This document shows positions 10,752 to 36,021 of a stretch of 36,553 nt of DNA, piece after piece. The stretch covers positions 1 through 36,553 of IMG/VR virus record IMGVR_UViG_3300042557_001361; one strand, 5' to 3'. The notes under the pieces were generated by a model. The model saw nothing but the letters and a program-made list of their open reading frames with translations, searched no databases and was not told the DNA's origin. Position numbers and translations under genes: made by a program. Positions within the stretch are counted from its first letter, which is position 1. Every line of letters begins with the position of its first letter. The stretch comes from a virus.

Positions 10752-11348
10752 TTAGTCTAAAAACTCTATGTAGGATTTACCATCTTTGGTTTGCAATGCA
10801 ATCTGTACTTGTCCACCTGAGTTGATGTCATAGCGGATAGCAGCTTTAACTGCAGCTTCTAGGATCTCAATGGCTTCTTCATAATCATCGCACTCTTCTA
10901 GGCCTAATGCATAAGCAGCACCAAGAGCAAGTTTCATGCCTGATCCTGTGCAATAAACTTTGTCCTTAGTTCTTTCTAAGCCGTAGCCTTCATCGATAAA
11001 GTAGAGAGTTCCATTGATAGCAACTATGAAGTCATTCTCAAATGATGCTGCCATTCCATCTGATTTAATGTCATAGCCAGACATTGCAAAGGTTTTGCGA
11101 AGAGATGGTACAAATGAATTCACCATAAACTTATCTAGATCTTTTGCTCTAGGAGCTAGTGGTGGATTAAAAGCATGTTGGATCAAGTTCATACCACGAA
11201 CAAGACCTGCAGCAGATACAAGGTACTTACCATTCTGTGCAATCTTTCCCATAGGAGAACAATCAGCTCTTAAGTCATAACCTGTTGTCTGTGTATCGGC
11301 GGCAATAATGCAGAAATCATCATGCTGAAATGCAATGAGCGTTGTCAT
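10752..11348 (-). CDS. proteasome beta/HslV-like Ntn-hydrolase
   Basis: The 198-residue protein begins MTTLIAFQHDDFCIIAADTQ. Removal of Met would expose Thr1, the nucleophile of proteasome-type Ntn-hydrolases. D17 is in the AADT motif, a lysine follows in MGKIAQNG near the Lys33 position, and SAAGLVRG matches the Gly47 loop. The usual family length is 170-240, so it is complete. It could be a peptidase acting on virion or host proteins, or an inactive relative that interferes with the host proteasome. AACGGAGGAAAA precedes ATG 11348. It is the last gene before the late terminator. Confidence 0.75.
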   Translation of the reverse strand: MTTLIAFQHDDFCIIAADTQTTGYDLRADCSPMGKIAQNGKYLVSAAGLVRGMNLIQHAFNPPLAPRAKDLDKFMVNSFVPSLRKTFAMSGYDIKSDGMAASFENDFIVAINGTLYFIDEGYGLERTKDKVYCTGSGMKLALGAAYALGLEECDDYEEAIEILEAAVKAAIRYDINSGGQVQIALQTKDGKSYIEFLD

Positions 11349-11614
11349 TTTTCCTCCGTTGCTAGTTCTCCACCGATTGCCATATACGCTGCGCCATCGA
11401 TCCAACCATCAAGTTTATCCGGTGATTGGACTAATCGTGCAACTTTTACTTGGTTCATACATAAAGCTACTTGCCACGTCTCAATCTTTGTTTTAAGTAC
11501 AACTGACCAGAGATCAGCAATACGCTTAAAGTTGTCTTCAGGATTGCCATACTCAGTTTGACGATCGTTATGAATGAGGTGAATCGCATCTTCTAAAATC
11601 TCTTTCCTGTTCAT
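11345..11614 (-). CDS. DUF6378-like phage protein
   Basis: The 89-residue protein shows the pattern MNRKEILEDAIHLIHNDRQT, then YGNPEDNFKRIADLW, a MNQVKVARL helix and DGWIDGAAYMAIGGEL. This is the widespread phage family annotated DUF6378, a small helical protein with conserved D, R and W residues. No biochemical role is established. It overlaps the metallophosphoesterase stop (TAATG-type junction) and the next gene as ATGA. Confidence 0.75.
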   Translation of the reverse strand: MNRKEILEDAIHLIHNDRQTEYGNPEDNFKRIADLWSVVLKTKIETWQVALCMNQVKVARLVQSPDKLDGWIDGAAYMAIGGELATEEK

Positions 11615-22258: not shown

Positions 22259-22457
22259 TATTGCTCTCCATAACTACGCCTTGACGGACTCGATTTGACA
22301 AATTGCCCCTGTATGTTGTGTAATTAAAAGTAAATAACGGATTGTTATAGAACACATTTGGTGCTTCATAAGCAAAGCGGACTACGTTTGCTGCGTTAGA
22401 TAGCCGAGGTTGCATCTTCTGGAAAGGAGTTTGAAAGGGGAGCATTTTTGCTGCCAT
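22245..22457 (-). CDS. small protein overlapping the glycosyltransferase gene (70 aa)
   Basis: MAAKMLPFQTPFQKMQPRLS and on to FTFNYTTYRGNLSNRVRQ. The beta-strand-rich, basic 70-residue protein has no known motif. Its 5' end overlaps the GT4 gene by 62 bases in another frame and its 3' end overlaps the connector by 14 bases. AAGGAGAACAAA precedes ATG 22457. It may be a head or neck accessory protein. Confidence 0.65.
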   Translation of the reverse strand: MAAKMLPFQTPFQKMQPRLSNAANVVRFAYEAPNVFYNNPLFTFNYTTYRGNLSNRVRQGVVMESNNGSL

Positions 22458-23523
22458 TTTGTTCTCCTTCTAGTTGATACCAGCCATCGTCCCAAAGAGT
22501 GAGCAAGCGTTCAAAGTACTCTTCATACTGAATGCCGATTGTATCAAGACTGTAGTTCCCAATAGCCCATCTGCGGATAGATTCATTATTTAATTTTTTT
22601 ACATCTTCGGCTGCTTTCATAAACTCAGCCAAAGTCCTGCATCGATAACCGGTAAATCCTGGTATGTTGGTTTCTGTGAATGCTCCCCAGTCGGTTGTGA
22701 TAGTTGGAGTTCCACAGGCTTGTGCTTCGATAACCACATTACCAAATGGTTCTATATACAGAGTAGGTGCAAATGTTGCAATTGCTCCGCCCATAAGCTT
22801 GGCTCTTTCTTCAGGGCCAACAGATCCTACAAATTCACCATATCCGGTGCCTTCACCAGGACCTGCAAGGATCAGACGCTTACCTAGACGCTCACATACT
22901 TCTTGAGCGATCTTGTAGCCTTTGCGGTCAATTATTCTGCCAATGTAGAGATAGTAATCTCCATCATGGGTTCCCAAAGGGAACATTTTGGGTTCTAAGT
23001 AACCATTGATGACAACATCAAAAAACTGACCATCTACGGCAGTAGGGTTTTGATGTCCTGCGTAAACTGAGTGCATCCATGCATAGGATTCAAAGACTCG
23101 GTATTTGCTAAATACTCCACCATAGCCAACACCAAACTCGACTGACATGTGGTTAGGAAAAGCATCAGCAATTGGCTTCTGTGCAGTTCCACCGATCAGG
23201 CATATAAAGTCTTTTGGCTGGATCCGCTTATTGATCTGACTGATTGCCATACCATTAAACGTTTTCCAAAGACTGTTGTTGATATCAAATGGGTATTGAG
23301 TGTAATGAGTTGACCCGACTTGAGCTGATCTGTAGTCCTCGGTTGCACACACTATGTGTTCTGTTACGTCACATTCAGGTTTGACTTCTCCTGAGTATAG
23401 GAACACTTCATGTCCAAGGTCATGCATCATCATACAGAACCGACGGACTTTCTCGGTATAAGCACAGTTTGCAAACTTTTTTGTTACCTGCGTGTGTGGC
23501 AGTGCCACAATATGAAAACGCAT
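22396..23523 (-). CDS. GT4-family glycosyltransferase
   Basis: The 375-residue protein ends in the GT-B, family-4 pattern: YIGRIIDRKGYKIAQEVCER, LAGPGEGTGY, and EPFGNVVIEAQACGTPTITT followed by DWGAFTE. The glutamate of E-P-F-G-N and the E-A-Q-A-C-G region bind the nucleotide-sugar. It probably transfers a sugar to a virion protein, or possibly to hydroxymethylated DNA bases if the left-hand cassette acts. GGGGGGAATCA precedes the ATG. It belongs to the island between capsid and connector genes. Confidence 0.85.
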   Translation of the reverse strand: MRFHIVALPHTQVTKKFANCAYTEKVRRFCMMMHDLGHEVFLYSGEVKPECDVTEHIVCATEDYRSAQVGSTHYTQYPFDINNSLWKTFNGMAISQINKRIQPKDFICLIGGTAQKPIADAFPNHMSVEFGVGYGGVFSKYRVFESYAWMHSVYAGHQNPTAVDGQFFDVVINGYLEPKMFPLGTHDGDYYLYIGRIIDRKGYKIAQEVCERLGKRLILAGPGEGTGYGEFVGSVGPEERAKLMGGAIATFAPTLYIEPFGNVVIEAQACGTPTITTDWGAFTETNIPGFTGYRCRTLAEFMKAAEDVKKLNNESIRRWAIGNYSLDTIGIQYEEYFERLLTLWDDGWYQLEGEQNGSKNAPLSNSFPEDATSAI

Positions 23524-26115: not shown

Positions 26116-29100
26116 TTACAACTCCGCACTTACTGCTAGAAAGCCTGATGTTCCGTTTGTATCTATAAAGACAGGGAGTCCTGCGGTCATTCCTGCCGCA
26201 GTTACAGCCAGCGCAAAGTTGTTCGTTCCACCAGGTGAGGCGGTCACTACAGTCGGAGCATTCACATTGATTGTGCCAGATAGGTTCCAACCAACGAGTC
26301 TCAAGTCAACCCAAGTCACGGCCGCAGTAAAAGCTCTCTTTGTCACTTTCATTGGGAAAAACACGACTGCGGTAGTCGATGAAGCTGCCATTCCCCAGGC
26401 AATAGGGTCATTTAGCCCAAGAGAACCTGCGGATATTCTTTCATAGTACCGCTGGCACAAAGCCAACTCGCCACCGATTGAACCAGACGCGGTCTGGAAC
26501 GCAGTCGCAACCGACCCCGCCTCGAGTTGCACGCCCCAGATGTCAAAAGTGTTTGATTGAATGCCAAGCGAGCTGGTGCGAGAATTGAAATCAGTTCCAG
26601 CTGAAACCCAAATATTGAGTTCTAGAACTGAATCGTTGTTTGTGCCGAGCGTCTTGCCAGCTAAAGACGGAAGTGTGAACGTTCTCGAATAGCGCACCCA
26701 AGATGTTGAAATCGCAAGCTTCTGGACTCCACCAACGCCCTCAAGTCTTGCAGATGGAGAACCACCAGTTCCGAATGTTTCCACAAACTCAATAGACACA
26801 TTCGGGGTGCCGCTTGCAGCTTTAGCAAAAAACGAGACGGTGACGGTTTGACCCGCTAGAGTCCTGACATCTTCAATTCGCTGTGTGAAGATAGTGCCAG
26901 CAAAGCCAGAACTCTGGCCAGACGAGACGACACGCATGTACTGCTTGGCTTCGTAACCTGCAATCGGCGCAGTTCCTGGCGTGAATTGTTGTACTGAAAA
27001 TGCGCTGCTACCGCCGACGACATTTGTTCCGCTGAATCTGTCAACGATAAAAACAGAAGTTTCTGTTGTCAGCGTTTGACTTGAAAAAGCCCGCTGGTTA
27101 TAGAAACAATCGCCATTGATGATTTTATTCTTGCCAGCGAAGAACGAACTGGTGTTCAGTGGGAAGGCAGCATTAGCCGCAGCTTGTGTGTAGGTGTTGG
27201 CTGCAGTGAAAGTCGAAGTCGTGATGATTTCAACGTAGTCACCGACTGTGGTTGCAGTGGTGAGCACAATGCTTGTGCCATCGGTCGCAGTGTAATCCAC
27301 AGCGCGAACAAGAAGCACACCGTTTAGGTAGACCTGCTCAAAGCCGACAGTGTAGGCAAGTGCGAGTGAATAGTCGTCATTGCCACTGATTGTTGTGCCA
27401 GCTGTTGTAATCGCTTTGCGCCAGTACTGCTCAAAAACTGTAGTTGAAGTGGCGTCAGTGTCTAACCAAAGAGATCCATTGACAGCTCCTGTTGGCATTG
27501 ATGCTTGTGCGTAAGCTGCAGCAGGTCCTGTTGCTCCAGATGCTCCTGTAGGTCCAGTTGGGCCTGTTGGTCCTGGAACTGTACTATCTGCTCCTGATGG
27601 ACCTGTAGGTCCAGTTGGACCGGTAGCTCCATTTGTACCAGCAGGACCGGTTGCTCCGGTAGGACCGGTTGCTCCGTCAATTCCTGCAGCTCCTGATGCT
27701 CCAGTTGCTCCGACAGGGCCGGTTGCTCCAACGGGTCCAGTCGGTCCGGTTGCTCCGTCAATTCCAGCTGGACCAGTTGCACCTGTCGCTCCGTCCAATC
27801 CTGCAGGACCTGTTGCTCCGATCGGTCCAGTCGGACCAACGTCGCCTTGAATACCTTGAATACCTTGAGGACCAGTTGCGCCACTAGCTCCGACAGGGCC
27901 AGTTGCTCCGACAGGTCCAGTTGCTCCATCGACTCCAGCAGGACCGGTTGCTCCGGTTGCTCCAGCTGGACCGGTGGCTCCAGTAGCGCCATCGATTCCA
28001 GAAGATCCTTGTGGACCTGTTGGTCCTGTTGATCCGATCGGCCCAGTCGGACCTGTTGGTCCTGCAACTGTTGAATCAGCTCCACTAGGTCCTGTTGCTC
28101 CAATTGGTCCGGTCGGTCCAGTAGTTCCGGTTGCACCGATTGGACCGGTTGCGCCAGTTGCTCCTGTTGGACCTTGTGGACCTTCTGGTGCTTGAAGTGA
28201 TGTGATTACAAATGAATAATGTTGTGAACCTTCAGTGTAAAAGTTAACAGTTCGAGATATGCCATCAGTATTTTGTGCATATAGCTCAACAATCATACGA
28301 TCTGTTGCAGATACTGCCGAACTTGGCAAAACAATCTCTGTGTCAACTAATACTGGGTTTGTACCATCATACCCAATAAGTGTTGGGTCAGTATCGCCAA
28401 TTGTGGCAAGAACAGTTCCTGCATTGTTTGCTAACTTCAAGCGTGCAAATGCGTACACATCTGAAGTATCTGTTGGAACTCTAAAAAATAGTGAGAAACG
28501 CTGAACACCTGCAGGAATAAGTGTAAAACCAAATGGTTCAGTAATGTATTGCTGCATTAACTCAGTTGAATTTGCTGCAACAGAATTTGTAACTGTTTGC
28601 ATTGCAGCACCTGTTGGTTCTTCGCCAAGTTGCTTGTAACCAGTTAATTCAGTGATTGATTCATTGAAATAGTAGTAACGGCCAGTTGTGTAACCTTGTG
28701 GACCTGTTGCTCCAGTTGCGCCGGTTGGTCCTTCAGCTCCAGTTGCACCAATCGGTCCGGTTGGGCCAGTTGCGCCAATCGGTCCGGTTGATCCTGTAGG
28801 ACCTGGCACGGTTGAATCTGCCCCTGTAGGACCTGTTGCGCCAATCGGACCTGTTGCTCCAACTTCGCCTTGAATACCTTGCGGACCTGTCGAACCTGTT
28901 GGACCAATGTCACCTTGCGGACCTGTTGGCCCGGTTGATCCTGTTGCGCCAACTAAACCAGTTGCGCCTGTAGCACCGATTGGTCCTGTTGAACCAGTTG
29001 CGCCAATAGGTCCAGTTACACCGATTGGACCTTGGATTCCTTGAATTCCTTGTGGGCCAGTCGCTCCGATTGGGCCTGTTGGACCGGTTACTCCAATTGG

Positions 29101-29391
29101 ACCGGTTACACCGATTGGCCCGGTTGCTCCTGTAGCTCCAACAGGACCTGTTGGTCCAGTTGGTCCAGGTGTTAATTCAATATGTGCAATCGTGTTGTCG
29201 ATACCATCGAGTCGAGCTTTGACAGTAGGAGAGACTCCAGATGGATTGGTTCCTAATTCATTTTCAATTGCTTCAATTGCATCATTTGCATTTGCATGTT
29301 GAGCTGCGTGAGGTACGGTTGCTGAATCTAAATAATCTGTAGGCGTTGGATTATTGAAATCGTCTATGCCGCCAGGATAGTTAGTCGCCAC
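26116..29391 (-). CDS. large tail fibre 1 with two collagen-like blocks
   Basis: The 1091-residue protein starts from GTG (GAAGGAGATACC before it) with [20 protein letters not shown] and a helical N-terminus. Collagen-like G-P/A/V-T-G repeats fill about residues 76-245, then a beta domain ([16 protein letters not shown]...), and a second collagen block at about 403-655. The C-terminal 300 residues hold the core shared with fibres 2 and 3: [56 protein letters not shown] and [11 protein letters not shown], ending SAEL. It is probably a long trimeric side or baseplate fibre. Confidence 0.88.
27520..28195 (-). repeat. collagen-like repeat block 2 of fibre 1
   Basis: Runs of Gly-X-Y codons (about 80 triplets), mostly [15 protein letters not shown], with irregular DGATG units. 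Codon use varies strongly, so the DNA is not a simple perfect repeat. Confidence 0.8.
28690..29166 (-). repeat. collagen-like repeat block 1 of fibre 1
   Basis: Gly-X-Y triplets of the kinds GPT, GAT, GPI and GVT, similar to block 2. Length of such blocks often varies between related phages by recombination. Confidence 0.8.
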
Positions 29392-29412: not shown

Positions 29413-29455
29413 GCAAGAGGGTTAAACGCCAGGGGGTAACACTTAACCCTCTTGC
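29413..29455 (-). promoter_or_regulatory. 13-bp hairpin at the end of the GT-A gene
   Basis: GCAAGAGGGTTAA and TTAACCCTCTTGC are perfect 13-bp arms around a 17-base loop. The first arm (minus strand) includes the stop codon of the glycosyltransferase. There is no U-tract, so it may slow transcription or mark an mRNA end and processing point. Confidence 0.75.
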
Positions 29456-30153
29456 TTTAGTTCTTTTATTGATTCGTCCCTGATTGGCTTATGATGTTCA
29501 TCGTTAAGCCAAAAAGTCTTTTTGTGTGAGCAAATTGCTCCCGTGTGTGCGTGGATAGGTATATCCAAAGACTTTAATCTTTTACTAAAGAGTAAATCTT
29601 CGCCGTACCATGTACCATTTATTGCACCATCAACAAACCAAGACCAGTTTTTGCCTTGATTATCAGTTGCATTTTCTTGTAATTTTAACAAAACATCTCG
29701 ATGAATGAGCAAACATCCTGTGCCTGCTGCATCAATTTCTACAACTTGATCTTGTGGATAGTCGTCTAAACATGATAAACCATGCTCAGTCATGCGATAA
29801 ATTGTAGGAACTGGCCTTAAATTGTCGCTATCATCTAGAAAAGCTGCAAATACTAAACCAGAAACAACTGGCCGCTCTTTATGGTGAGCTGTTTGCACTA
29901 GCAAATCAAAAGTATCTAATGTAAGTCTTTGATCTGAATCAAACATCAGCAACCATGCTGCATCTGTTTGTTCTAAAAAGTTTTTAACTAATACATTGCG
30001 AGATCTAGTTAGTAAACCTATATTTGAGACTTGAATGAACGAATCAAACTTATCCATGCGTTTACCACGGATCTGAAGTAGATCTACAACTAACTCAGCT
30101 GCTACAGAACCGTCATTGACCATGCCAATAACTACACGATCGCCTGACTTCAT
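29443..30153 (-). CDS. GT-A-type glycosyltransferase, GT2-like
   Basis: The 236-residue protein has a GT-A Rossmann-like start (RVVIGMVNDGSVAAELVVDL), a probable DxD motif in LLMFDSDQRLT (D72-S-D74), and WYGEDLLFSKRL later, the usual catalytic-base region. It likely transfers a sugar to a virion protein, since it lies between capsid and fibre genes; a DNA-base acceptor is another option. Hairpins lie on both sides of the gene and its 46-residue upstream partner, suggesting an acquired cargo unit. Confidence 0.8.
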   Translation of the reverse strand: MKSGDRVVIGMVNDGSVAAELVVDLLQIRGKRMDKFDSFIQVSNIGLLTRSRNVLVKNFLEQTDAAWLLMFDSDQRLTLDTFDLLVQTAHHKERPVVSGLVFAAFLDDSDNLRPVPTIYRMTEHGLSCLDDYPQDQVVEIDAAGTGCLLIHRDVLLKLQENATDNQGKNWSWFVDGAINGTWYGEDLLFSKRLKSLDIPIHAHTGAICSHKKTFWLNDEHHKPIRDESIKELKQEG

Positions 30154-30361: not shown

Positions 30362-31705
30362 TTAGAAGCCTGTTGGAACGATTGTTCCTGTACCTGTGAT
30401 TACAGATACGTTCTTTGCGAAGCGGTGAACCGCTGCTACGTAACCGTATGCCTGGAAGCGTACAGTCAAGTTAGCTGACAACACGTCTGGAAGAACGCGA
30501 GTCTTAACTCCACCTTCGAATAGGTATGAGTCATCGAACTTACCAACAAGGATTGGAGTCTGGTTTGTACCAGCACCTAGGTTGTTTGGCATTGTTGCAT
30601 CGATGTAGACAGGAACTCCGTGGATTGTACCAACGAGGCCTGCAGGTGCTCCTGGAGCTGTAACAACTCCGTTTGCATTCATTGGACCGCCAGCAGTTGG
30701 AACAACTAGTGGACGGTTTGCTGTGTCAACAGATGAAACAAACCAGTACCACATTTGTGGTGACATGATGATTGCATCAGCAGCACGGAAGCGGTTTGTT
30801 ACAACCTTTGAGATTGCCTTAGCAATTGCTAGCAATCCACCTTGTGCTGTTGGTGTTGTCTCAGTCCATGTTACTGGAATTGAGTTTGTTGTGTCATTGT
30901 ACTTGTTTACGAGGCCTTGGATTGTTCCATTTGTGCCATCGCTGTTACCAAGTACTGCTGTGTTAAGCTGTAGTGCGTAATCAGCCATCAAGTCGCCGAA
31001 GATCATGCGATCTAGGCCGCCTGCAAGTGGTGACTGCTCAACAAGCTGGATCGATGCATTCTCATAGCCTGAGATTGTACGAACTGCGCCTGTAGCAGTT
31101 GATGTTACCATGTCGCGTGTTGTAGTTGCAGCATTATCTGCAGACTGGAACGCTGTCTTGGTACCAAGTGTGATTGCTGGAATGTTGATGCTGTCTGTAC
31201 CGACTGGCAGTGCCATTCCTGTTAGCTTGTCTGCAGCTACGCGAGCAGCACGAGCAAACTCTGCATATTCGTTTGTTAGGTACAAAGGTGGAACGAAATC
31301 TCCGCCTGATGTATCTGTACGTGAGATATCGCGTGTTTCCACATCGACTTCACCTTGGTGACGATATAGACGCTCAAAAGCATCACGATCTCCACGGATT
31401 GTTGCTGCTGTAAGGTCACGGAAGTAAGAGTTACGTCCATCCTTATCATAGGTCATCGCTTCGCGAGTAACCTTTGCTCCGCCGAATGTTACTACGCCAG
31501 ATTCCTTGCGTGATTCTGCAAGTGCAATTGTGCGCTTTTCATTTGCCTGAGCTGTTGCGATGCGCTCATCTAGTGCTGCAATTTCATCTTGCTTCACTGA
31601 TGCTGCATCTAGAGCTTCTGCTGTAACTTCTTCTGTTGCGAGTGTTGTATCAACCTCGGCAACAAGAGCGTCACGCTGCTCGATGAGCTTTGCTGAGAGA
31701 GTCAT
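30362..31705 (-). CDS. major capsid protein, HK97 fold
   Basis: The 447-residue protein has an N-terminal helical delta domain (about 1-75, heptads around DEIAALDERIATAQANEK) that acts as scaffold and is usually removed by the protease. The HK97-type core follows (YFRDLTAATIRGDRDAFERL, then SGGDFVPPLYLTNEY, later PTAGGPMNANGVVT and GTIHGVPVYIDATMPNN). It follows the prohead protease, as usual. AAAGGGTCCAA precedes the ATG. Confidence 0.93.
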   Translation of the reverse strand: MTLSAKLIEQRDALVAEVDTTLATEEVTAEALDAASVKQDEIAALDERIATAQANEKRTIALAESRKESGVVTFGGAKVTREAMTYDKDGRNSYFRDLTAATIRGDRDAFERLYRHQGEVDVETRDISRTDTSGGDFVPPLYLTNEYAEFARAARVAADKLTGMALPVGTDSINIPAITLGTKTAFQSADNAATTTRDMVTSTATGAVRTISGYENASIQLVEQSPLAGGLDRMIFGDLMADYALQLNTAVLGNSDGTNGTIQGLVNKYNDTTNSIPVTWTETTPTAQGGLLAIAKAISKVVTNRFRAADAIIMSPQMWYWFVSSVDTANRPLVVPTAGGPMNANGVVTAPGAPAGLVGTIHGVPVYIDATMPNNLGAGTNQTPILVGKFDDSYLFEGGVKTRVLPDVLSANLTVRFQAYGYVAAVHRFAKNVSVITGTGTIVPTGF

Positions 31706-31759: not shown

Positions 31760-33097
31760 TTATGCCTTACGCTTGCTGCGTAAGGAATGTTGGTTGCGCT
31801 TGATGGCTAGTTTGCGCTTTGCAAGTTCAAGATCGTCTTGAGCTGAACGCATACCTACTGTTGTTGAGTCATAAGCTGGCAAAGTTACTACTGAAACCTC
31901 ATAAAGATCTAGATCTGTCAGAGTACGTAGTCCTTCTTCGCGAGTTTGGCCGTTTTCAGCTACTGTGAATGCAAACGACATCTTGTTAACATCTCCACGG
32001 CGCAATGCTGATGCAACTTCCGCTGCACGTGGGTTAGATGGATCAAGATCTGCTTCCATACGAAGACCAATTCGATCTTCAGATAGTTGAAGAGTTCCAG
32101 ACTGTGTTGCTGCTAATGGAAGTTCGCCCATGTCATGGTTAACTAGCAAGAAAACAGGATTACCTGTTTGAAGCGTGCGAGTAAATGCTCCTGGAGCAAT
32201 AACTTCGCGGAAATTAAGTCCCGTTGCTTCTTGATTGAATGTTGCAGCATAACCACCGATGCGAATTGAACCGTCTTCAGTATCCAAAGCACGGATTTCT
32301 ACATCCATCGTGATCTTTTCAGCGCTTGCAATTGCGCTCTTGCGCTCTTCTATCACCGCTTCGTCCTCCGCTTTCCGTGGTTCTTCTTCCACGATTTGCT
32401 CGTTTATTGGATCAGGATTCATAACATTTACTCCTAAAGATGATGATAATTGCCATTTCCACTTCTGATGTGAGTCAATTCTCTCAGCCAGGAAGTTGGC
32501 AATACCTTGTTGATTGTGCAAAATAGCGCAATCGAATGCTTCTGCAAGCTCTCCGATTAGCATTTCATTTGCAGATAAGATTTCAGCTGCCAAAACACGA
32601 GCATCTGTTACATTTGCTGCTGTTTCTGGCAATTCTGCTGTCAAAGCTATTGTTGAAAGACCTGCTAGAGCTGATTTTCCAAGCTTTCGTACATTTTCTG
32701 CAATTGGATCAATTGAACTGTATGCATCTCCATAGATTTCACCAAAAAGATCATGGTACTCGGCAAAATCAGGTCCCATGACATTCCAATGAGCTCCATG
32801 AGCCTTGAAATAGAATGAAACTACATTTGCAAGCAGTTCATTGAGCTCTTCTGCAAGATCTGGCGTAGATTCTTCTTCTTTTTCTTCAATTGTGATTAAA
32901 GCAATTGCTCTATCTTCAATTTTTGAGCAGATATTAGTTGCCCAGTCAGTACCGTTTTGCAATCCCCATGAATCTCTTACTTTTATCACGCTTTCGAATG
33001 ATAGAGAAGAGTTGTTTCTTACTTCTTCAGCAATAGAAGACTCTAATTGAGATGCTTCTTCTTGCACATTTTTAGGAATGCGGTACATTTCGGCCAT
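31760..33097 (-). CDS. Dps/ferritin-like domain fused to HK97-type prohead protease
   Basis: The 445-residue protein has three parts. Residues 1-75 are a helical domain I do not know. Residues 80-222 look like Dps: H103 in AHWNVMGPDF, H115 in EYHDLF, D130 in SSIDPIAEN, and E134. These four match E. coli Dps ferroxidase ligands H51, H63, D78, E82 with identical spacing (12, 15 and 4). Residues 262-445 are an S78/HK97-type prohead protease (IRIGGYAATFNQE, EVIAPGAFTRTL, H321 in NHDMG, S374 in NKMSFAF). The Dps part could protect DNA or bind iron in the capsid, or serve as scaffold. Unusual fusion; no frameshift signs. Confidence 0.85.
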   Translation of the reverse strand: MAEMYRIPKNVQEEASQLESSIAEEVRNNSSLSFESVIKVRDSWGLQNGTDWATNICSKIEDRAIALITIEEKEEESTPDLAEELNELLANVVSFYFKAHGAHWNVMGPDFAEYHDLFGEIYGDAYSSIDPIAENVRKLGKSALAGLSTIALTAELPETAANVTDARVLAAEILSANEMLIGELAEAFDCAILHNQQGIANFLAERIDSHQKWKWQLSSSLGVNVMNPDPINEQIVEEEPRKAEDEAVIEERKSAIASAEKITMDVEIRALDTEDGSIRIGGYAATFNQEATGLNFREVIAPGAFTRTLQTGNPVFLLVNHDMGELPLAATQSGTLQLSEDRIGLRMEADLDPSNPRAAEVASALRRGDVNKMSFAFTVAENGQTREEGLRTLTDLDLYEVSVVTLPAYDSTTVGMRSAQDDLELAKRKLAIKRNQHSLRSKRKA

Positions 33098-34317
33098 TAT
33101 TCAACTACTCCCATGATAGGCAGTGACTTATCTGAGTCGACGCCAAGCGGTGCCACTTCTCCGCCAGCTGTTACGCTGCCAGCAAGCGCCTGATTGAACA
33201 CGTCTCCACCAACATAAGGTTCGCGGCCTTGTAGTTGACGAGCTTCATTAGGCGACATTGTTCCTGCTTGGATATCCATTGCGTACACACGTGAACGTGT
33301 GAGAGCGTCTGTTCGTAGCAATGATGATGTATCAAACGCAACATCTTGGCCTGGTGGCAAAATCTGGCTCAATGCAATCTCGATTCTACGCAACCAAGGA
33401 GCAATTGTATGAGTTAAGAAGTTCAAAGATGCTTGTTCAACGTTCTGGTATGTTTGACCGTCGCTCATTGCACCAATAAGGTTTGCAGGGATACGATAAA
33501 CTCGAGCAATGTCACGGATTAGCTGCTCACGTGTCTGAATCAGTTCCATGTCAGCTGCAGATGATGTGATTGGCTTCCATTTCATGCCATTTGACAAAAC
33601 TGCAGGCAAACGATGCTTTCTGTGTGTTGCAAGCCAAGTATTGCGCAAAATCTGTGCTTGTTCATTAGTTAATTTTTCGTCTGTCTCTAAAACAGATGAA
33701 GGTGTGCCACCTTCTGCGTACCATTGTGCAAGGTGACGATCCATTGCCAATGCAATACCTGTGAGGTTGCGCGTCTGAATCAATGGTGAAACGCCAACCA
33801 ATGACTGCGGTGGGGTCAACCAACGCATGTGAATTAGGTCATCTTGAGGAATTTCATTGCCAAGGTGTAGATATCTACGTCCTTGCATGTTACCGGTAGG
33901 TAAAACTTGCATTTGATATGGGTGAAGCGGTGTTAATCCGATTGGATTGCCGCCTCTGTCACGATCGATGTGAATGTAAGCATTACCGTGCAAAGCGGCT
34001 GAAAACATCATCATTTGAACTAATTCGAACTGATTTGATACAGGATCTGGGTTTTTGATGATTGGATCTAAAGGAACAGCTACTCTTTGGCCATTTTTTA
34101 CATCATATTGACGCAATTGCAAAGATGAAACTGTATCAGCAAGCAAAGAAACAGAACCAAGAACAGTCGAAACACCTAGTGCAGTCCACTCATCAATGCG
34201 CTCACCGGCTGCAGATGTGATTGTAGTCTGACCGTATAGCTGTGAAAGTGGTGCCACGTAGTTGTTAAACTGTGGGTATCGACCATACAGCGGCGCTGCG
34301 CGCTTGATAATACTCAT
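33097..34317 (-). CDS. portal protein, HK97 family
   Basis: The 406-residue protein has the portal pattern: DPIIKNPDPVSNQFELVQMM, DLIHMRWLTPPQSLVGVSPL, RDIARVYRIPANLIGAMSDG, TIAPWLRRIEIALSQILPPG. It forms the dodecameric ring at one capsid vertex for DNA entry and exit. It starts immediately after the small membrane protein gene (ATGA overlap) and precedes the protease fusion. Confidence 0.94.
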   Translation of the reverse strand: MSIIKRAAPLYGRYPQFNNYVAPLSQLYGQTTITSAAGERIDEWTALGVSTVLGSVSLLADTVSSLQLRQYDVKNGQRVAVPLDPIIKNPDPVSNQFELVQMMMFSAALHGNAYIHIDRDRGGNPIGLTPLHPYQMQVLPTGNMQGRRYLHLGNEIPQDDLIHMRWLTPPQSLVGVSPLIQTRNLTGIALAMDRHLAQWYAEGGTPSSVLETDEKLTNEQAQILRNTWLATHRKHRLPAVLSNGMKWKPITSSAADMELIQTREQLIRDIARVYRIPANLIGAMSDGQTYQNVEQASLNFLTHTIAPWLRRIEIALSQILPPGQDVAFDTSSLLRTDALTRSRVYAMDIQAGTMSPNEARQLQGREPYVGGDVFNQALAGSVTAGGEVAPLGVDSDKSLPIMGVVE

Positions 34318-34481
34318 TCAGTTACCTCTAACGATGATAGATAGGACAGGATTAGTGCGAAGACGCCACCTACGATTAACGCAGTACCAAATCCCCAGTT
34401 GATACCTACTCCAATTGCGATTGCTAGTGCTCCAGCAATTTCAATTACAGTTGTAGCGATTTCTTTTAGTTGCTTACGCAT
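34314..34481 (-). CDS. small membrane protein between terminase and portal (55 aa)
   Basis: MRKQLKEIATTVIEIAGALA is followed by more hydrophobic residues (AIGVGINWGFGTALIVGGVF, ALILSYL), two transmembrane helices. GAGGGGGAAACAA precedes ATG 34481, within the end of the terminase gene. A small two-helix protein here is found in several actinophages; its function is unknown. It could be a membrane anchor for assembly or a superinfection protein. Confidence 0.7.
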   Translation of the reverse strand: MRKQLKEIATTVIEIAGALAIAIGVGINWGFGTALIVGGVFALILSYLSSLEVTE

Positions 34482-36021
34482 TTGTTTCCCCCTCGGACCA
34501 TGGATCAAATATAGAAGGCAGGAATCCGCCTTGTTGATGCCACCATGCTGCTCGATCAAGTGCCATGACCGAAGCCACAGCTAAGTCGATTCGACGTGTA
34601 GAACCTTTTTTATCTTTAGATAATCTAGTTCCTCGATTGTCGACCTTAAGTGTTGCGTTTCCCACGTGGCGAGAAAGCATAGGATCGCCATTATGAGAAA
34701 GAGTTTGGTTCATTACAGCTTCATAGAAGCGTGTTGTTGCAGGTGTCATACGAGATGATGTCTGCGGAAATGTGACAACAGGTAGATTTTCTTCTTCAAG
34801 TACTTGCATTGTTCTTGCCCAGCGATATGGATCGCATGCAATCTCAACTACCTGGTATTTTCTACATGCTTCTCGCAAAGCTTCTTCAACATCTAGAATT
34901 GGAATTTGCCAATCAGCATCTGCTTCTTCTGGTTTTTCCCAGGTGGCGACCGGGGCGATATGAAGGACTTCCCCGACCTCAACCGCCACGATCGCCGTGC
35001 AGTCGCCGTTAAACGACCCATCGAACCCTAACACGACTTGCTTGCCAGGTTCAATTTCACGTGCGTCTAACGCTGAGTCCCATGCACCATGAGGTAACCA
35101 GGTATCAGATGTGGCTGTCCATATGTTTAATCTTTTTGTTTTGAATTCAGGTTCTGGCGTCGAACGAATGGCAGAAGTAAAGTCATCTTTCGAAACGATG
35201 TCATCGAATCCTGGATTAGCAATCTTCCATGCATCAGGCGTACGATAATCGAGATCAGGATGAGCTTCCCACCAAGCAAAGAAGAAGGTCGGATCGTCGA
35301 TTTCACCTGAAGCAACCTTCTTTCCATACTCGTACATCTGAAAGCATAGAGAGTCTTTGCCAGAAATATCAGTTCTAACTCCTGCTGTGGTGATTGCCAC
35401 AAGCAGAGGTTCTCTACGTGCACCCATCGCAAGAGACATTACGTCCCAAAGCTCACGATTAGGCTGAGCATGAAGTTCGTCAAACGCAACGAAAGTAGGA
35501 GAAAGACCTTCCTTGGTAAATGCTTCAGCTGATAGTGCTTTGTACGTAGACCCTGTCTTTGGGTTGTAGATTGTGTCTCTGTACACATCTAACATATCGG
35601 CAAGCTCAGGTTGTAACCTGATCATGTCTTTTACGTTATTGAATACAATCTTAGCTTGGTCACGATCCGCCGCACATGAGTAGGATTCGCCGCCGTTCGG
35701 ACCAAGAATTAGGTGCTCAAGTACAATTGAGCTGAGCCAAGCAGATTTACCGTTCTTACGTGGAAGACCAATAAGAGCACGTTTGTGCTTTAGGCTGCCA
35801 TCTGGCTTTTCTGCAAATAGATGTCTAGTCAGCTCTTTCTGCCAACCACGAAATACTAGTGGCTCGCCAGTTAGACCTGCAATCGAATCTTTTGTGATTT
35901 TGCATAAAGCTTCAGCAAACTCAATGACATCGTCTCCACGAGTCTTCTTAAGTTGCTGCACTTCGGTTAGATGCTGTGGCTTCCAACCTGCAATCTTTTT
36001 TTGCCCCTGTTTTGCTGTCAT
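34474..36021 (-). CDS. terL: terminase large subunit
   Basis: The 515-residue protein carries the ATPase motifs: Walker A-type LPRKNGKS (residues 86-93), Walker B with catalytic acid in FVAFDELHA (D181, E182), and the nuclease D334 in LGFDGSFNGDCTAIVAV with D340. It packages DNA into the prohead and cuts it. Length is normal for HK97-like TerL. The start overlaps the small subunit stop as ATGA. Confidence 0.96.
   Translation of the reverse strand: MTAKQGQKKIAGWKPQHLTEVQQLKKTRGDDVIEFAEALCKITKDSIAGLTGEPLVFRGWQKELTRHLFAEKPDGSLKHKRALIGLPRKNGKSAWLSSIVLEHLILGPNGGESYSCAADRDQAKIVFNNVKDMIRLQPELADMLDVYRDTIYNPKTGSTYKALSAEAFTKEGLSPTFVAFDELHAQPNRELWDVMSLAMGARREPLLVAITTAGVRTDISGKDSLCFQMYEYGKKVASGEIDDPTFFFAWWEAHPDLDYRTPDAWKIANPGFDDIVSKDDFTSAIRSTPEPEFKTKRLNIWTATSDTWLPHGAWDSALDAREIEPGKQVVLGFDGSFNGDCTAIVAVEVGEVLHIAPVATWEKPEEADADWQIPILDVEEALREACRKYQVVEIACDPYRWARTMQVLEEENLPVVTFPQTSSRMTPATTRFYEAVMNQTLSHNGDPMLSRHVGNATLKVDNRGTRLSKDKKGSTRRIDLAVASVMALDRAAWWHQQGGFLPSIFDPWSEGETNA

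Follow-up and report, generated by a model that had tools for sequence, protein, structure and literature searches.

Ferritin and Dps (mini-ferritin) genes carried by phages are generally classed as auxiliary and as an aid to the host under oxidative stress. The stand-alone phage Dps proteins described so far (phrog_3636), those of Gratiaviridae and of Lactobacillus phages among them, are the products of separate genes that have been read as oxidative-stress auxiliaries, and no fusion to a head protein is described there. Across the wider Dps family (Dps/DpsL/NAP, PF00210; 1n1q, 8ff9 and 3iq1), the proteins have in common a four-helix fold with a BC helix, an H/H/D/E set of metal ligands and an HWN motif. 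The canonical site has in addition an acidic fifth ligand, placed four positions beyond the second histidine, which is Asp67 in E. coli and Asp47 in L. innocua. DNA binding through a basic tail occurs in only part of the family. In phages with HK97-type heads, a gp4-like S78 protease (PF04586, phrog_80) with a characteristic His and Ser is encoded between the portal and the major capsid protein (MCP) genes. In phage lambda, the C protease and the Nu3 scaffold arise by in-frame internal initiation, so that the two products share a C-terminus. Finally, a ferritin-like enzyme is linked to an HK97-fold shell in the encapsulins, which carry ferritin-like cargo and in some cases, such as that of P. 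furiosus, have cargo and shell in one polypeptide (PMC7355545).

Here we describe a viral gene that shares features with each of these systems. The window, by which we mean the whole stretch of DNA analysed (36,553 nucleotides; positions 1 to 36,553 of the IMG/VR record IMGVR_UViG_3300042557_001361), encodes a protein that sequence comparison and structure modelling identify as a prohead protease of modular build, with a genuine Dps domain in its N-terminal arm. The fold, the ligands and the HWN motif are those of the Dps family, but the phage domain is embedded in a larger protein, is acidic, has no basic tail and has usually lost the fifth ligand. The protease part is the same domain as in HK97 gp4, with its His and Ser and its place between portal and MCP, whereas the fusion has a long N-terminal arm of interchangeable modules (nterm, Dps, AspD, Tudor PF11160 and, in one relative, a HAD-like segment) and its gene has in-frame internal starts. 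In lambda the short product of such internal initiation is the scaffold; here the short product is predicted to be the protease, and the long one to add Dps. The encapsulins offer the nearest functional analogy, although in our case the ferritin-like part is of the Dps type, is attached to the protease of a phage that packages DNA and is a putative cargo of the shell. Loci of relatives are referred to below by L-numbers.

Results

Architecture of the gene and its neighbourhood

A single unbroken frame of 445 aa at positions 31760-33097 (-) encodes, in order, an N-terminal domain, a Dps domain, a linker and an S78 prohead protease. Its start shares bases with the stop codon of the portal gene in a TAATG overlap. 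The frame is flanked by the genes for the portal (33097..34317, -) and for an MCP of the HK97 fold family (30362..31705, -), with the terminase genes upstream, the large subunit at 34474..36021 (-); Pfam and PHROGs agree on all three assignments. Residues 1-73 (32879..33097, -) make up a small helical domain, modelled with a pLDDT mostly of 81-89, which alignment shows to be a shortened form of the 'nterm' module seen in the relatives. The Dps domain follows at residues 79-222 (32432..32863, -) and is separated by an acidic, likely disordered linker (residues 225-260; 32318..32425, -; pLDDT 33-52) from the protease domain at residues 265-417 (31847..32305, -). The protease matches Peptidase_S78 (PF04586) over exactly these residues (E=6.2e-42) as well as the head maturation protease family phrog_80 (E=6e-51), and its H321 and S374 are invariant in 25 aligned sequences. 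A model of the full-length protein is confident at residues 1-60 and in the Dps domain, low in the linker and poor in the protease part. The earlier note on this DNA had claimed that one uninterrupted frame joins a Dps-like domain to an HK97-type prohead protease, and Pfam, PHROGs and PDB searches all agree with it.

Several other features of the window and its relatives were observed alongside. An HslV-family peptidase is encoded at 10752-11405 (-) (phrog_1040, E=7e-22), and a protein of 1091 aa that contains numerous collagen-like G-x-y repeats at 26116-29391 (-) (PF01391, E=3e-49), after which come two tail-fibre-like ORFs. Two glycosyltransferase genes lie within the structural region (29443-30153 and 22396-23523, -), one of them directly after the MCP gene. 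The MCP gene of the window is uninterrupted, while in several relatives it is split by a group I intron of ~200 nt (Rfam RF00028; L057:5069-5266, L046:6112-6309 and L030:7701-7896); the MCP genes of L038, L047 and L048 are similarly interrupted, at sites below the gathering score or outside the Rfam scan.

Fold and metal ligands of the Dps domain

The 445-aa protein matches the Pfam Ferritin family (PF00210, residues 83-221, E=1.6e-11) and the phage Dps family phrog_3636 (E=4e-24), and its top PDB sequence match is the Dps protein 1n1q (E=3.6e-15). An AlphaFold2 monomer model of residues 79-225, with a pLDDT of 95.8, consists of four long helices and a short BC helix (3-27, 33-60, 69-75, 88-115 and 119-143 in the numbering of the model). 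When this model was compared with the PDB by Foldseek, Dps proteins came out on top at a TM of ~0.9 and an rmsd mostly of 1.1-1.5 Å, with a TM of 0.92 to 1n1q. The earlier note had named a fold other than a ferritin-like one as one objection to its proposal, and because the structural matches are Dps proteins at this TM, that objection falls away.

The same note had reported all four ferroxidase ligands. That holds for H103 (codon 32789..32791, -), H115 (32753..32755, -), D130 (32708..32710, -) and E134 (32696..32698, -), whose spacing is 12-15-4 and which coincide with the ligands of Dps in alignments, but it omits the canonical fifth ligand, which is lost. The four residues are invariant in 125 of 125 distinct phage Dps sequences among the matches listed, a set that diverges to ~45% identity, and this makes it very likely that iron binding is conserved. 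In sequence alignments the position of the usual acidic fifth ligand is Glu in 1n1q and 3iq1 but Gly119 in the window (codon 32741..32743, -), and it is acidic in only 16 of the 125 phage homologues among the matches listed. The site therefore differs from the textbook one, and its ferroxidase rate and chemistry may differ as well. With a mean net charge of about -14 on the Dps domain, acidic neighbouring linkers and no basic tail, the earlier suggestion that the domain might shield DNA by binding it loses ground, and we disfavour the DNA-binding mode of Dps here.

Spread among phages

Scans of IMG/VR for Dps-bearing relatives, one of which alone gave 493 relatives, yielded at least 134 fusion ORFs. 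At least 87 of these are distinct once duplicates and fragments are removed, and they fall into at least 27 clusters at 90% Dps identity and at least 8 at 70%. The search for further Dps-protease fusions that had been suggested thus gave an ample answer and, since at least 87 distinct Dps-S78 fusion ORFs come from independent contigs, the fusion is not an accident of assembly and a chimera is excluded. The gene order TerL, portal, fusion, MCP is found in nearly all of the loci compared, and throughout the main lineage wherever the contig shows it. Frames that lack the protease stop at contig ends, except those of L036 and L022, the latter being cellular. Around Dps the modules vary, with an N-terminal 'nterm', an 'AspD' of ~130 aa and a Tudor-like domain (PF11160). 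In the divergent fusions L195, L208, L223 and L227 the order is nterm-Dps-protease, and the polyprotein of L195 (L195:3192-5537) has between nterm and Dps a HAD-like segment of the acid-phosphatase type (PF03767, E=3e-4, under the curated cut-off). In L006 and L142-L151 the same locus is found without Dps; the module is therefore optional and not essential to head assembly.

The nearest TerL is that of the Pontimonas phage phiPsal1 (49%) and the nearest MCPs are those of mycobacteriophages (40%), and by these likenesses the uncultured phages carrying the fusion are probably actinophages. The match to the phiPsal1 protease spans the protease part only. Among the isolated phages of INPHARED, no record covered 80% of the 445-aa protein, and the Dps matches obtained there with the Dps domain were all distant, at less than 60% identity. 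The cellular relatives comprise one GTDB contig, whose Dps is 33% identical. Examples from uncultured Caudovirales exist in BFVD/UniProt under automatic names and without comment (A0A6J7WIS1, 'Prohead protease', 432 aa; A0A6J7WPK9, 763 aa; A0A6J7XDU5, 333 aa), and the sequences themselves are therefore not new. In searches of openly available full texts, we found no paper on a fusion of Dps or ferritin to a protease.

Internal start sites

The earlier note overlooked an internal start that is predicted to make a Dps-free protease. Ahead of the protease module in the window, a Shine-Dalgarno (SD) sequence GGAGG (32365..32369, -), with a pairing energy of -10.6 kcal/mol to the anti-SD, precedes an in-frame GTG at residue 248 (32354..32356, -), where by sequence and energies the shorter product would begin. 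All 73 main-lineage loci have such an in-frame start with a strong SD before the protease module (mean -8.2 kcal/mol), and 71 of the 73 have a further ATG or GTG with a strong SD ~7 codons ahead of the Dps module (mean -10.4 kcal/mol), the counts and means being for the best site per locus within a short interval. These energies are comparable to that of the gene's own start, at -6.8 to -9.6 kcal/mol. Counted per codon, -7 kcal/mol is reached by 51% of the in-frame starts in the pre-Dps zone and 64% of those in the protease zone, against 1.5% elsewhere in the ORF. When 19-20 representatives of these related and hence non-independent sequences were shuffled synonymously so that the protein sequence was kept, the means were -5.1 at the pre-Dps site and -4.9 at the protease site, against the observed -9.2 and -8.3. 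Not one of 300 replicates was as strong at either site, which indicates selection at the DNA level on the internal starts.

The window and L001 are without the pre-Dps start, and the window retains the protease start. Among loci fetched later, L137-L139 and L109 repeat both sites and L141 has the protease site only. In the L195-type fusions, internal starts are absent at the pre-Dps and protease positions, so that they are not common to every fusion. An internal ATG in L036 (5953, -8.1) would yield free Dps. For the main lineage we infer that the fusion doubles as a nested gene, from whose one frame both a Dps-bearing and a Dps-free protease would be made.

The prediction of both forms also speaks for a rival explanation, in which oligomerisation of Dps clusters the protease or helps to form a protease-portal initiation complex, the metal doing no more than stabilising the dimer interface. 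The seat of Dps on the protease, beside the portal and MCP genes, is what such an assembly aid would call for, and the loss of the fifth ligand is in keeping with it. Yet the four metal ligands are the same in 125 of 125 sequences (among the matches listed) despite their divergence to ~45% identity, close relatives have the same locus without Dps, and other phages have Dps as a stand-alone gene, and we judge this explanation quite improbable. The idea in the earlier note that a Dps 12-mer might match the symmetry of the portal is speculative.

Selection and the linker

The median dN/dS is 0.086 for Dps, 0.092 for nterm, 0.102 for the portal, 0.110 for Tudor, 0.138 for MCP, 0.144 for AspD and 0.182 for the protease, and the Dps module is thus constrained at least as strongly as the head proteins. 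HK97-type proteases are removed during maturation, and a captured Dps could be a passenger with no role of its own that is destroyed together with the protease at that step; that the module is missing from some relatives would suit this. But a dN/dS below the protease's own, invariant ligands and retention across at least 27 clusters at 90% identity make such a passenger extremely improbable, and on the dN/dS and the ligands we reject a degenerate domain.

In the linkers that follow Dps, an R-S-(A/E)-like motif is present at 59 of the 73 loci against 5.4 expected by shuffling, a motif that was picked post hoc and a test that ignores relatedness. We consider it a candidate site of self-processing. 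By analogy, ETR|DISRTD in the MCPs is a candidate cleavage site of the protease.

Association with the head outside the main lineage

In L036 the order of the fusion is reversed, with the S78 protease first and Dps second. Its protease is only 29% identical to that of the window, and its Dps is 59% identical to that of the window and 66% to that of L008. The 'nterm' module, which elsewhere sits on the protease, is here on the C-terminus of the portal (L036:3428-5281). In a different group of phages, a related Dps gene lies directly behind a phrog_776 portal gene in at least 43 loci, where it starts between -117 and +25 nt from the end of the portal gene and stands alone or is followed by a DUF5824 region (PF19141). 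Two opposite orders of fusion to the protease, together with the portal-adjacent gene, point to delivery to the head; such a pattern is hard to explain by chance fusion, and a role at the head is indicated.

The main rival, protection of the host cell, gives these arrangements another meaning. In it, Dps is an auxiliary protein that defends the infected cytoplasm against reactive oxygen species (ROS) and Fenton chemistry, and its fusion to the protease, the product of a highly expressed late gene, is merely a convenient way to have it made. This is how a 'ferritin' and other ROS genes of freshwater phages have been interpreted (PMC6802176), and likewise the stand-alone Dps of gut phages (PMC8008677). 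Members of the same Dps clade also stand alone, away from the phrog_776 portal, in at least 12 loci, which fits a cytoplasmic role there, and host defence would conserve the ligands too. It accounts less well for Dps and protease being joined in two opposite orders, with the portal-adjacent gene as a third arrangement, or for a main-lineage frame without a start/stop pair that would give Dps free of the protease. Moreover, the late expression of head genes comes at a bad time for protecting the host. On balance we regard host defence as unlikely for the fusion, if less so than an assembly aid.

Within the phrog_776-portal group, further observations concern the genes that surround Dps. In L163, L173, L175, L179, L200, L207 and L225, Dps forms the N-terminus of ORFs of 389-753 aa with DUF5824 (PF19141), which immediately follow a phrog_776-type portal gene and frequently precede a giant ORF. 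In L102, a stand-alone Dps gene is directly followed by an open frame of 1988 aa or more (L102:6472-12435), and similar giant ORFs come after Dps in many loci of this group; the example in L164 has no match in Pfam or PHROGs.

Discussion

Our preferred reading, to which we give a probability of roughly 0.55, is that Dps is a head-associated module that protects against iron and ROS and is delivered with the protease. The fusion to a head protease suggests an iron-handling protein that becomes part of the virus head or, at the least, is produced along with it. With internal initiation in addition to the gene's own start, the infected cell would obtain the protease from a single frame both with and without Dps, and the form with Dps would enter the prohead with the protease or within an initiation complex of portal and protease. 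Cleavage of the flexible linker by the protease may follow, so that Dps stays in the head or close to it, where it would oxidise and sequester Fe(II) and use up H2O2. Head proteins and packaged DNA would in this way be guarded from Fenton damage, with no need for DNA binding.

A more far-reaching version has whole Dps cages in the heads, imported into the prohead by the protease and set free by the protease itself, where they would form a ferroxidase compartment of the virion against iron and peroxide around the genome, or would carry iron to the next host. We put this forward tentatively, with the odds leaning somewhat against it. If it is true, Dps-containing heads would be the viral counterpart of the iron-storing encapsulins.

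The family described here suggests that many phage ferritin and Dps genes may belong to the machinery of the head, and surveys that count them as helping the host may therefore misread them. It connects HK97-type heads with ferritin-like cargo, as is the case in encapsulins, and offers a concrete route by which iron could travel in virions. The prohead protease itself appears in this light as a rack of exchangeable modules.
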